A stretch of 64,000 nucleotides of DNA from an uncultured Tropicimonas sp. (GTDB taxonomy: Bacteria; Pseudomonadota; Alphaproteobacteria; Rhodobacterales; Rhodobacteraceae), in assembly GCA_947497945.1 (NCBI GenBank), contig CANMIP010000007.1, positions 124,001-188,000 of the forward strand, read 5' to 3'. A program made the translations under genes and the position numbers. The notes below the pieces were generated by a model, which ran no database searches, was not told the DNA's origin, and saw only the letters and a list, made by a program, of their open reading frames with translations. Below, piece after piece: positions 44,402 to 57,753 of this stretch; the first letter of the stretch is position 1; each line of letters starts with the position of its first letter.

Positions 44402-45289
44402 CTAATCCCATTTGATCGGAGATTTCTTCCTGAGCGCACCGCCAAGGTGTTGGCGCATGGCGTATGACGCCTCGATCAGTTCACCACGCGCGACCAGATC
44501 AAGGATCGCCAGGTGCTCCTGACACTGGATGGTGAGTCGTTCGGGATCCACTTTCGCACGGTATTCCATCAGACGTCGCATCCGGTTCACACGAACCAGC
44601 GCCGTGTGGAAATACGGGTTTCCCGACATCTTGATCAGTTCCTCGTGGAACTCGGTGCCCTTCTCCAGTCGGTTGAACGTCGGAACGCGCGCTGTGTCGC
44701 TTTCCAGTATTCGCAATTGCTGCGCGCGGAGGCTTTCGATCACATCGGACGACGCCAGAAAGCTGGGCTCGAGGATCGCGGCGGGTTCGATCACCATCCG
44801 GAAGCGATAAACCTGGTCAAAGCCTTCCGGCGTCTTGGCAACCGGCAAGAGGTGCCAGCCATATCCCTGCTTGCGTTCGGCCCACCCTTCGTGGCTCGCC
44901 CGGTGCAGGATCTCGTTCGCGCCAGCCTTGGTCAGGTCATAGCGGTCGCGCAGCATCTGTTCGGTAACATCTGCCGGGATTTCGTCATCCAGCCATTCCT
45001 CGGCAAATCGCATATAGGGATCGTCGGAGGCGGCTTCGCTTTCGCCATTCTGGACATCGAGACTGCGCTTGCGCGCCGAGGCGGAAACGAAATACCCCCG
45101 GTTCTTCTCCCTCTGCAGGATCTGCTTTTCTTCCAGCAAGGTCAGTGCTTCGCGCACCGGCGAGCGGGAAACGCCGAACTCGTCGGCCACTTTCTGCGCG
45201 CTGAGATGGGCTCCGGGTTCGAGGATGCCCGAGGCGATGCGACCGGCAAGGCTGCTGGCAATGGATTGCGGGAGAGACGTGGTTTTCAT
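44402..45289 (-). CDS. GntR-family regulator with two winged-helix segments (FadR/FCD-like)
   Basis: 295 residues. The N-terminal wHTH (about 5-68) is GntR-type: ISLAGRIASGILEPGAHLSAQ-like, ADEFGVSRSPVREALTLLEE, REKNRGYFVS. A second winged-helix-like segment follows at about 96-148 (IPADVTEQMLRDRYDLTKAG, GWAERKQGYGWHLLP). An FCD-type effector domain (about 155-290) has the Asp/His pattern of metal-dependent FCDs (FHEELIKMSGNPYFH). It is the last minus-strand gene of the island, 136 bp beyond the isomerase, and has its own upstream motif at 45346. It probably regulates the divergent tct operon and itself. Confidence 0.88.
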   Translation of the reverse strand: MKTTSLPQSIASSLAGRIASGILEPGAHLSAQKVADEFGVSRSPVREALTLLEEKQILQREKNRGYFVSASARKRSLDVQNGESEAASDDPYMRFAEEWLDDEIPADVTEQMLRDRYDLTKAGANEILHRASHEGWAERKQGYGWHLLPVAKTPEGFDQVYRFRMVIEPAAILEPSFLASSDVIESLRAQQLRILESDTARVPTFNRLEKGTEFHEELIKMSGNPYFHTALVRVNRMRRLMEYRAKVDPERLTIQCQEHLAILDLVARGELIEASYAMRQHLGGALRKKSPIKWD

Positions 45290-45345
45290 TGGAATGAGGC
45301 TTTAACGCATTGGATAGGCCGGAAAATCCGATATTTCAGGCTTAT

Positions 45346-45363
45346 GAGAAACAAAAAACCAAT
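45346..45363 (-). promoter_or_regulatory. Candidate GntR operator upstream of gntR
   Basis: Minus-strand ATTGGTTTTTTGTTTCTC, identical at 17 of 18 positions to 47379-47396 in the divergent promoter. It lies 57 bp upstream of the gntR start codon. Confidence 0.6.
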
Positions 45364-55136: not shown

Positions 55137-55155
55137 CGGCCGGAAAGGGGACGGC

Positions 55156-57753
55156 ATGCGCAGCGCGACCCGGATTGAGACGGCCTCCGGACAGTTGACC
55201 GTCACAGACCTGCGGGGCGTACTCGGCGCGCGGGTCACCCGCCTTCCCCACGTCCTGCGCCTTCTGTCTGAAAACCACATTCGCTCGACCGGCGAGATCG
55301 CGCCGCTCCTCGACGCGCTCGACGCCTGGCTCGACGGCCGGACAAGCGGTTTCGAGTTCACCTTCCAACCCAATCGCATCCTGATGCATGATACGACCTG
55401 CACCCCGGCGCTGGCCGATATTGCGGGGCTCCGGGATGCGCTGGCCGATGCGGGGCACGATCCCGAGATCCTCGCGCCCGTCCTGCCGGTCGAGGTTTCG
55501 GTCGATCACTCGCTCGCCGTGGATTGCTACGCCACGCCGGAGGCATTCGAGATCAACCGGAGCAACGAGATCCGGCGCAATGCCGAGCGCTATGGCTTTA
55601 TGAAATGGGCCTCGCAGACCATGCCGACGGTGCGCGTCAACCCGCCCGGCACCGGCATCATGCACACGATCAACCTCGAGCAACTGGCAAGCGTTCTGGA
55701 GATCGGCGAGGACGGCAGGGCGCATCCCGACATGCTGCTGGGCACGGACAGCCATACGCCGATGATCAACGGCATCGGCGTGATGGGCTGGGGGATCGGC
55801 GGGCTGGAGGCCGAGAGCGTCATGTTCGGACAGGCGGCCTCGCTCGCCATGCCCGAAATTGTCGGCGTGCGTCTGGAGGGGCGCCTGCCGGCCGGAACCC
55901 TTTCGACCGATCTTGCGCTCGAAGTGACCCACCAGCTCCGCAAGATTGGTGTGGCGGGGGCGTTTGTGGAATTCTATGGCCCCGGCGTGGCGGGTCTTTC
56001 CGCCGATGACAGGGCCGTCCTTGCCAACATGGCGCCGGAATACGGCGCCTCCACCGGGTTCTTTGCTGTCGACGCATCGACAGTTTCCTATCTCGAACGT
56101 ACCGCACGGCCAGAAGCGCTCATCGCCTCGGTCGAGCCTGTCTTCCGCGCGATGGGTCTTTGGTTCAACACGGCCGAGACTCCACGTTTCGACCGGGAGA
56201 TCTCCATCGATCTCGGCGCGCTTTCGCCCCTGATTGCCGGCCCGCGCAGACCGCAGGATCGCAGGCCACCCCGAGAGGCCGTCCCGGCCATCGAGGCGGC
56301 GATCGGCCGACACCTCCGTCATGAGGACGGCAATGGCGTTCCTGACGGCGCCGTCGGGGTCGCCGCCATCACCTCCTGTACCAATACATCGGATCCACGC
56401 CTGCTGATCGCGGCCGGGCTTCTGGCGCGCAAGGCGCGGGCAAAAGGGCTCAGGCCGCCCTCCTGGGTCAAAACCTCCTTGGCGCCGGGCTCCCCCTCCG
56501 CGCGCGCTGTCCTCGAACGCGCGGGCCTGTTGGAGGATCTCACAGCCGTCGGCTACGACATTGTCGGCTTCGGATGCACGACCTGCATCGGCAATCCCGG
56601 CCCCCTGCCGGATGTGATCGAGACGGCCCTGGCAGATGGCAAGGCCATCGCGGCCATTCTCTCCGGCAACCGGAACTTCCCCGGACGGGTCCATCCAAAG
56701 CTCGACCTCGCTTACCTCGCATCGCCGCCGCTCGTGATCGCCTACGCGCTCAAGGGCGACGTATATGGTGATGTGCTGCGCGACCCACTTGGAACCGATC
56801 CGGCCGGATCACCTGTCTTCCTGTCGGATATCTGGCCCATAGGTTCCGAGATTGATGCCGCCATGGAGACCGGCTTCCGCGCCGCGGATGTTCCCCAGGC
56901 CTTCCAGGCTGCCTGGCGGAGCAAGGCCTGGGAGGCGATCGACGCCCCCAAAACCGCCCGCTTCCAATGGAACCCAACATCGCGCAATCTGCGCCGGCCG
57001 AAATTCGCCTCATTTGACGAAGGCAGTCGCCTTGGCACCTACGGCGCCCATCCGTTGGTTGTTCTCGGCGATGACATGACCACGGATCATATCTCTCCGG
57101 CAGGCTGGATCGACCCAGACAGCGCGGCCGGCAAATGGCTGGTCGAACGCGGCGGCGACCCGGATGACCTCAATGTCTACGCCTCCTATCGCGGGAACTG
57201 GGAGGTGATGCTGCGCGGGATCTTCACCAACCGACTGGCAAGGAACTATCTCGCCCCGGACGTACCTCCTGCGCATACCCTGATCGATGGCGGAACGATC
57301 CTGCCGGTCCACGTCGCGGCCGAGCGTCTTCAGGGTCGCAAGGCGTCGGCCGTGATCCTCGCCGGTGAGCGATATGGAATGGGGTCCAGCCGGGACTGGG
57401 CCGCCAAGGGCGTGGCGCTTCTGGGGGCCCGCGCCGTCATCGCGCGCAGCTTCGAGCGGATCCACCGCTGCAACCTCATCGGAATGGGCGTCCTTCCAGT
57501 TGAGATCACCGACGGGTTCACGCCGGCTTCCGCCGGCATCCGGCCCACCGACCGGTTCGAGGTCGACCTGCAGGCCGAGAAGCTGTCCCCGCGCGTCACG
57601 GTTCCGCTAAGGTTGTTGCGCGAAGATGGAACGGTCACGCAGATTGCAGCACGGGCTGCCGTTGAGACCCGCCAAGAGGTCGAACTGCTTCGGTGCGGCG
57701 GCGTGCTTGCCTCCATCCTGCATCAGGTTGTTGGAAACTCCGAAGGCGCATGA
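55156..57753 (+). CDS. AcnA-type aconitate hydratase homologue
   Basis: 865-residue aconitase. [4Fe-4S] ligands are Cys408 (ITSCTN) and Cys474 and Cys477 (FGCTTCIGN). The substrate loops LLGTDSHTPMINGIGVMGWGIGG and GSSRDWAAKG are intact. The segment that in housekeeping AcnA reads QDFTGVPAVVDLA is HDTTCTPALADIA here, which points to a distinct clade. ATG 55156 (GAAAGGGGACGGC before it) lies 19 bp after the rraA-like gene. It is the last island gene. It could hydrate or isomerise aconitate-like tricarboxylates imported by tctCBA; a TCA role is less likely. Confidence 0.9.
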   Translation: MRSATRIETASGQLTVTDLRGVLGARVTRLPHVLRLLSENHIRSTGEIAPLLDALDAWLDGRTSGFEFTFQPNRILMHDTTCTPALADIAGLRDALADAGHDPEILAPVLPVEVSVDHSLAVDCYATPEAFEINRSNEIRRNAERYGFMKWASQTMPTVRVNPPGTGIMHTINLEQLASVLEIGEDGRAHPDMLLGTDSHTPMINGIGVMGWGIGGLEAESVMFGQAASLAMPEIVGVRLEGRLPAGTLSTDLALEVTHQLRKIGVAGAFVEFYGPGVAGLSADDRAVLANMAPEYGASTGFFAVDASTVSYLERTARPEALIASVEPVFRAMGLWFNTAETPRFDREISIDLGALSPLIAGPRRPQDRRPPREAVPAIEAAIGRHLRHEDGNGVPDGAVGVAAITSCTNTSDPRLLIAAGLLARKARAKGLRPPSWVKTSLAPGSPSARAVLERAGLLEDLTAVGYDIVGFGCTTCIGNPGPLPDVIETALADGKAIAAILSGNRNFPGRVHPKLDLAYLASPPLVIAYALKGDVYGDVLRDPLGTDPAGSPVFLSDIWPIGSEIDAAMETGFRAADVPQAFQAAWRSKAWEAIDAPKTARFQWNPTSRNLRRPKFASFDEGSRLGTYGAHPLVVLGDDMTTDHISPAGWIDPDSAAGKWLVERGGDPDDLNVYASYRGNWEVMLRGIFTNRLARNYLAPDVPPAHTLIDGGTILPVHVAAERLQGRKASAVILAGERYGMGSSRDWAAKGVALLGARAVIARSFERIHRCNLIGMGVLPVEITDGFTPASAGIRPTDRFEVDLQAEKLSPRVTVPLRLLREDGTVTQIAARAAVETRQEVELLRCGGVLASILHQVVGNSEGA

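Follow-up and report, generated by a model that had tools for sequence, protein, structure and literature searches.

The best-described system close to the locus considered here is the catabolism of four-carbon sugar acids, in which OtnK, OtnC, OtnI and LtnD convert L-threonate and D-erythronate to dihydroxyacetone phosphate (DHAP) (Zhang et al. 2016, as cited in PMC12540250). Another point of reference is AcnD, which, according to PMC5690661, dehydrates 2-methylcitrate. In a 64,000-nucleotide window of the genome of an uncultured Tropicimonas sp. (contig CANMIP010000007.1, positions 124,001 to 188,000), twelve adjacent genes at window positions 44402-57753 combine OtnK and OtnC with a dehydrogenase of the 3-isopropylmalate/isocitrate dehydrogenase (IPMDH/ICDH) superfamily, a racemase-like protein (Rac), an RraA-family protein and a second, AcnA-like aconitase. 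Open reading frames (ORFs) and Pfam matches agree with the order and strands given for these genes in a first-pass annotation of the window. Our best reading is that they form a mobile-looking island, passed on horizontally among marine and root-associated bacteria, for the catabolism of an imported hydroxy-polycarboxylate resembling citrate or tartrate. That the island is a real, recurrent unit ending in OtnK and OtnC is much firmer than the chemistry of its entry steps; to the whole route, in which a hydroxy-polycarboxylate would enter the tetronate pathway below LtnD and OtnI, we assign a probability of roughly 0.4.

Two of the proteins belong to the tetronate families proper. OtnK, the 3-oxo-tetronate kinase (52730..54016, plus strand; Pfam SBD_N and NBD_C, that is, DUF1537; PDB 5dmh at 2.9e-112), scores 513.9 against an NCBIfam equivalog cut-off of 350 (NF043035), and OtnC (54013..54654, plus strand; Pfam Aldolase_II; PDB 6vop at 9.3e-63) scores 299.2 against 250 (NF043034). 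The Hyi-like protein, previously taken as a counterpart of OtnI, reaches only 184.3 against 325 for OtnI and 196.4 against 353.45 for hydroxypyruvate isomerase; LtnD/DenD, as had been noted, is absent among the twelve genes in Pfam and NCBIfam searches. Elsewhere in the same genome (L057, G000 C5:132000-151900) there are an L-threonate dehydrogenase (392 against 350), a second OtnK (547) and an OtnC (294), together with an OtnI-like isomerase just under its cut-off (294 against 325). Because the genome thus holds a full LtnD-OtnK-OtnC-OtnI cluster at another place, the island is not a broken copy of the ordinary operon. A further region of this genome (L058, G000 C17:96500-116400), with a RuBisCO-like OiaX over its cut-off, an OiaK-like kinase (485 against 700) and a GntR regulator, is likely a 3-oxo-isoapionate cluster.

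Twelve orthologues served as queries in a genome scan that returned 240 confirmed relatives of the IPMDH-like protein, of which the best 80 loci were kept. These were chosen by the IPMDH and are not independent, three of them coming from one Nioella isolate. Full 10-kb flanks were available for 57, to which all counts out of 57 refer. A gene was scored as present at a tblastn bit score of at least 60-100 (300 for the IPMDH) inside 10 kb, so that genes farther out were missed; in G303, the genome of locus L131, the island-type AcnA sits beyond the flank examined. The count of 57/57 for the IPMDH itself is circular because the IPMDH was the query. The company that it keeps consists of Rac (55), GntR (53), OtnK (51), OtnC (47), RraA (37) and AcnA (31), and every one of the 51 full-flank loci with OtnK also has Rac. 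Less frequent neighbours are an amidohydrolase (17), an AbrB-type protein (17), a succinate-semialdehyde dehydrogenase (SSADH)-type aldehyde dehydrogenase (16), a cupin (13) and the trans-aconitate 2-methyltransferase Tam (9). Gene order depends on the lineage and the company stays constant: in many marine loci AcnA follows RraA, and in many rhizobia it lies divergently beside GntR. The carrier also varies by lineage, among the tripartite tricarboxylate transporter (TTT), iron-type ABC, MFS, SLC13, CitMHS and DctA types, with TctA near 31 and an iron-type ABC permease near 20 of the 57 IPMDH-like genes. Eight plasmid regions were read, seven with annotation (Rhizobium, Shinella, Cupriavidus, Pantoea, Paraburkholderia, Agrobacterium and Roseomonas) and one, from S. 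meliloti, without; the Roseomonas region has an IPMDH of 56 percent identity and lacks OtnK.

As a control we used 20 other OtnK loci of the window's family, hand-picked and including one only 10.2 kb long. LtnD or OtnI was found at 13 of them, and AcnA and RraA at none; an IPMDH appeared in two, at only 33-36 percent identity, and Rac in two, at 43 and 31 percent. TTT-OtnK-OtnC sets accompanied by an IPMDH relative of 33-36 percent identity occur at L216 and L217. Across the family, OtnK is present in 100 of 290 genomes and the IPMDH-like gene, at an identity of at least 85 percent, in 5 of 295. In a sample of the phylum, 5 of 398 genomes, the window's own included, gave a strong IPMDH match: one (L232) has an IPMDH of 68 percent identity with OtnK, OtnC, CitMHS, GntR and an aconitase, and the remaining three have matches of 50-54 percent with OtnK not nearby. 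According to the first-pass annotation, its extended pathway would fail if the aconitase, RraA and IPMDH-like genes were not retained in related clusters; the comparison came out mostly in its favour, given the empty control for AcnA and RraA and the presence of OtnK at most IPMDH loci. The extended unit is recurrent, distinct from the known tetronate operon and ends at OtnK/OtnC. The part of the proposal that does not hold is the inclusion of Hyi and Ldh_2 among the pathway enzymes: each occurs in only 7 of the 57 loci, and both are local additions. The open-access literature that we searched yielded no paper on this unit or on otnK together with an aconitase.

The IPMDH-like enzyme (50904..51977, plus strand; Pfam Iso_dh at 5.4e-76) has the Iso_dh domain and the catalytic residues of its superfamily of beta-decarboxylating dehydrogenases, in which it forms a subfamily of its own. 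It scores under the cut-off of all 17 NCBIfam models that it matches (e.g. leuB, 203 against 353; TTC, 209.5 against 470.4), and equivalog scores identify it neither as LeuB nor as an isocitrate or tartrate dehydrogenase. Residues R93, R103, R124, Y131, K184, D217, D241 and D245 are invariant in 12 orthologues; by homology to ICDH and IPMDH we take them to bind both carboxylates, the metal and the alpha-hydroxyl, and these presumed roles point to a substrate with a malate core. The stretch at the site of the third substituent, N87-V-S89-A-G, is polar and small, invariant in the 12 orthologues and largely of the same character in sister enzymes; in the genome's own tartrate-dehydrogenase-like paralogue the same stretch is hydrophobic (SLWGLLIPLR). 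The sister enzymes, about 50 percent identical, are found in a tricarboxylate setting, one on a Thalassospira plasmid (L229) with TTT, a PrpF-like isomerase, tcuAB and a two-component system, and another in Shinella HZN7 (L231) with TTT, PrpF, RraA and AcnA nearby.

Rac (52053..52730, plus strand; Pfam Asp_Glu_race at 2.9e-15) has no NCBIfam match at 0.001, and a PDB sequence search with it found no close solved relative, giving one match at 0.22. Its predicted structure (pLDDT, a model confidence score, 94.5) matches arylmalonate decarboxylase as well as racemases of glutamate, aspartate, hydantoin and allantoin. Over 24 aligned sequences, C78 is invariant and the second cysteine position of the racemases is occupied by F or S, so that the pair of catalytic cysteines found in aspartate, glutamate and hydantoin racemases is not present. 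A single cysteine argues against racemisation and for one-sided protonation, that is, decarboxylase or tautomerase chemistry. Rac resembles arylmalonate decarboxylase within the Asp/Glu racemase superfamily in its fold and its one catalytic cysteine, and differs from it in that this cysteine occupies the first position, not the second. The RraA-family protein (54651..55136, plus strand; Pfam RraA-like; PRK09372, 196.6 against 136) carries, as read by eye, D-X20-R-D, which we take to be the metal/catalytic motif of the RraA-family pyruvate aldolase/oxaloacetate decarboxylase; it is accordingly predicted to be competent as an aldolase or decarboxylase.

The aconitase (55156..57753, plus strand; Pfam Aconitase and Aconitase_C; PRK12881, 1094 against 905) probably starts at ATG 55156; family searches and alignments used a start at 55153, which makes the protein one residue too long (the 866-residue reading). 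It is 44 percent identical to the housekeeping AcnA of the same genome and does not fall into the housekeeping clade. Two mis-framed housekeeping AcnA rows and four mis-framed paralogue rows were left out of the sequence comparisons. In our tree, in which L145 duplicates L127, 47 rows (44 island-type and three accompanied by TTT only) form a separate clade with support 100, outside which lie 11 housekeeping rows, two AcnD-like rows and, on a long branch, the Pantoea row L037. The iron-sulphur and arginine motifs (SCTNTS-type, TCIGN, SGNRNF and GSSRDW) are kept in 42 island rows apart from single-residue variants, and all 42 read HDTTC where 11 correctly framed housekeeping rows read QDFTG. Histidine thus replaces glutamine at residue 79 of the 866-residue reading, a position that, judging from aconitase structures, presumably contacts the substrate; AcnD of Variovorax also has histidine there. 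The island protein is not AcnD by score (685 against a cut-off of 1419.85), and neither prpC nor prpF is among the twelve genes.

On plasmids of Paracoccus (L224), S. meliloti (L225) and S. americanum (L226), island-type AcnA stands alone with TctCBA and GntR, which suggests that it acts on an imported acid itself. The case for an obligatory aconitase step is weakened, since no such aconitase lies within 10 kb in 26 of the 57 loci and the island type is lacking in 5 of 14 whole genomes; at L144 (G232 C3:595154-597544) the gene has an in-frame TGA and may therefore be decaying. Tam lies beside 10 of the 80 loci, those in rhizobia and their relatives being L034, L107, L126, L130, L131, L134, L135 and L137; the one checked scores 362.8 against a cut-off of 297.

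The sequences themselves show gene content and its conservation, the membership of OtnK and OtnC in their families, the special aconitase clade and the single cysteine of Rac; the reactions, the substrate class and, from neighbouring genes, the end product are inferred as follows. TctABC, or elsewhere an iron-type ABC, MFS, SLC13, CitMHS or DctA carrier, would bring in a 2-substituted tartrate, HOOC-CH(OH)-C(OH)(R)-COOH, which has a malate core and, as its third substituent, a polar group. The IPMDH-like enzyme would oxidise the alpha-hydroxyl and drop the beta-carboxyl, giving an enediol or 2-oxo-3-hydroxy acid. The enediol expected from oxidative decarboxylation of a 3-hydroxymalate core is common to 2-oxo- and 3-oxotetronate, and Rac, acting as a keto-enol tautomerase (or a decarboxylase) in the place of OtnI, would protonate it to 3-oxotetronate, which would explain why OtnI is dispensable. 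RraA may help as a beta-keto-acid decarboxylase. Phosphorylation by OtnK followed by decarboxylation by OtnC would then yield DHAP. The AcnA paralogue could act on a substituted citrate as a specialised hydro-lyase resembling AcnD, feeding the core route or running parallel to it.

Neighbouring genes suggest that DHAP is probably the product, although the pattern is not general. Methylglyoxal synthase, which uses DHAP, occurs in 16 of the 80 loci (127.9 against 84 in the one checked with NCBIfam); tpiA, gpmA, pyk, gapN and ppc lie in the Cupriavidus region (L036), pyk and gapN in that of Paraburkholderia (L038) and tpiA in that of Rhizobium (L034). Among the 80 loci, matches of at least 50 percent identity are confined to L125 for gapN and pyk and to L134 for tpiA.

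On paper, the chain that the first-pass annotation had proposed, from aconitase through oxidation to cleavage into a C4 acid, does not close. For the core route, the starting acid has to be a 2-substituted tartrate or a pentarate of identical formula, and the aconitase fits a substituted citrate. Several acids were worked through. Hydroxycitrate taken by AcnA and the IPMDH to 4-hydroxy-2-oxoglutarate suits RraA and leaves OtnK and OtnC idle; taken straight by the IPMDH to 3-hydroxy-2-oxoglutarate, it offers no CH2OH to the kinase. Linear pentarates would arrive at the formula of 3-oxotetronate by one oxidation and the loss of one CO2, but their carbon spacing is unlike that of known IPMDH substrates. 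With 2-(hydroxymethyl)tartrate (apiarate) the core route closes and AcnA is idle. Trihydroxytricarballylate would use all the enzymes, but it is not known to us as a natural compound. Itatartarate would pass through AcnA and the IPMDH to 4-hydroxy-2-oxobutanoate, which is no tetronate; PMC9875883 offers an aconitase-like step on itatartarate as speculation. Because we could write no single route that puts all the enzymes to work on a known natural acid, the entry chemistry is proposed tentatively, at somewhat under even odds. Slightly less probable is the fullest form of the proposal: a new way of breaking down 2-substituted tartaric acids or hydroxylated tricarboxylic acids, with a new IPMDH subfamily and a one-cysteine racemase-fold tautomerase standing in for LtnD and OtnI, an AcnD-like specialised aconitase handling a related substituted citrate, and plasmids and islands spreading the genes among marine roseobacters, rhizobia and plant-associated gammaproteobacteria.

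A number of observations weigh against our best reading. On paper, we found no plausible citrate analogue that passes through aconitase and then the IPMDH to 3-oxotetronate, and we know of no 2-substituted tartrates with R = CH2OH as common natural acids. OtnK is missing inside 10 kb in 6 of the 57 full-flank loci; because L098, L102, L103 and L105 keep the IPMDH and Rac without it, this pair may do something else. Conversely, L204 has Rac-OtnK-OtnC-Hyi-cupin without the IPMDH, and L232 gave no Rac match despite its IPMDH, OtnK, OtnC and aconitase. Gammaproteobacterial IPMDH/OtnK pairs include divergent kinases (38 percent identity in L037), and pyk, gapN and tpiA are rare as neighbours.

The aconitase might take no step in the pathway at all: if the imported acid or an intermediate poisons the housekeeping enzyme, the island AcnA could be a resistant spare, with Tam removing trans-aconitate in some relatives. 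Such protection would suit a gene that is present in 31 of 57 loci yet dispensable, in which all aconitase catalytic motifs are kept and the His-for-Gln difference in the active site is fixed, and it would suit the presence of a Tam that exceeds its cut-off. We nevertheless regard it as unlikely, given that the association of AcnA with Tam is not significant in the 57 loci (p 0.49) and that the AcnA genes standing alone with TctCBA and GntR suggest a role of their own on the imported acid. A somewhat less likely arrangement would comprise two modules, with AcnA, the IPMDH and RraA taking a hydroxycitrate-like acid through 4-hydroxy-2-oxoglutarate to pyruvate and glyoxylate, and Rac, OtnK and OtnC serving a tetronate. 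Pairs of an aconitase and an IPMDH-type enzyme are standard in the citrate, isopropylmalate and homocitrate routes, and this usual chemistry speaks for such a module, as does the D-X20-R-D of RraA. The AcnD-like histidine would suit a substituted arm, as in the action of AcnD on 2-methylcitrate (PMC5690661). The distribution of the genes points the other way: OtnK is present at each of the 37 full-flank loci that carry RraA, with RraA beside the IPMDH and OtnK not seen only at L133, where the flank is incomplete; RraA shows no significant association with AcnA (p 0.78); and the IPMDH accompanies OtnK in 51 of the 57 loci and AcnA in only 31.

The same counts bear on a further alternative, that of an ordinary D-erythronate/L-threonate operon carrying passenger genes. 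In its favour, both OtnK and OtnC belong to their families proper and a Hyi-like gene is close by, but LtnD/DenD is lacking, Hyi is rare in the relatives, the full ordinary cluster lies elsewhere in the genome, and of the 20 control OtnK loci 13 have LtnD or OtnI and none has AcnA or RraA. We consider this alternative highly improbable, and a hydroxy-polycarboxylate entering the tetronate pathway below LtnD and OtnI remains our preferred reading.

The remaining genes of the island are a GntR/FCD regulator (44402..45289, minus strand; Pfam GntR at 5.2e-21, FCD at 4.5e-16), the accessory Hyi/OtnI-like TIM-barrel isomerase (45426..46244, minus strand; Pfam AP_endonuc_2), the accessory Ldh_2 family dehydrogenase (46241..47326, minus strand; Pfam Ldh_2 at 4.3e-118), whose best NCBIfam match is L-sulfolactate dehydrogenase (262, under the cut-off of 500), and, on the plus strand, the solute receptor TctC (47762..48751; Pfam TctC at 1.6e-20), TctB (48810..49241; Pfam TctB at 9.9e-19) and the permease TctA (49254..50795; Pfam TctA at 9.7e-150). 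The TctC start is probably ATG 47762, with GGAGG upstream, in an ORF open from 47477. The statement that most of the genes overlap by 1-4 bp proved too strong: 4 of 11 adjacent pairs overlap (Hyi/Ldh_2, OtnK/OtnC and OtnC/RraA by 4 bp, Rac/OtnK by 1 bp), and gaps of 12 to about 440 bp lie between the members of the other seven. The island lies just downstream of recJ (called by eye) and a tRNA-Glu. In its flanks, at 42484-43712 and 57886-58578, one side has an IS3-type OrfA (HTH_Tnp_1) together with an integrase-like ORF, and the other side has a transposase-like ORF, the integrase-like and transposase-like calls being made by eye with no match in a Pfam search. The G+C content drops to 59 percent at 44-48 kb.

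If the proposed route is correct, it would provide marine and root bacteria with an extra carbon source and would assign functions to three subfamilies named only by superfamily, namely the IPMDH-like, the racemase-like and the second aconitase proteins. Public annotations call the second aconitase plainly "AcnA" and the dehydrogenase "isocitrate/isopropylmalate dehydrogenase family protein", so that automatic pathway reconstructions may misread them as enzymes of the tricarboxylic acid cycle or of leucine synthesis. Because the core is conserved, three purified proteins would be enough to put the question to the test.

Among described systems, the Thalassospira L229 cluster, of the tricarballylate/aconitate type, shares with the island TTT and an IPMDH of the same wider family (49 percent identity), but it lacks OtnK, OtnC and Rac and uses a PrpF-like isomerase. 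Like the trans-aconitate tar system, the island would be a small inducible tricarboxylate catabolic unit; unlike the island, the tar system, as described in PMC11495376, consists of a PrpF-type isomerase and an MFS carrier only. With the AcnD/PrpF branch of the 2-methylcitrate cycle, as presented in PMC5690661, the island has in common a dedicated AcnA-family dehydratase with histidine at the same position, and it differs in having no prpC or prpF and in an AcnA that lies far under the AcnD cut-off and in another clade. Compared with the ordinary tetronate pathway (PMC12540250), the kinase, the decarboxylase and the predicted DHAP end product are alike, whereas the island dispenses with LtnD and does not conserve the isomerase, has the IPMDH-like and racemase-like proteins instead, and adds AcnA, RraA and carriers of the polycarboxylate type.

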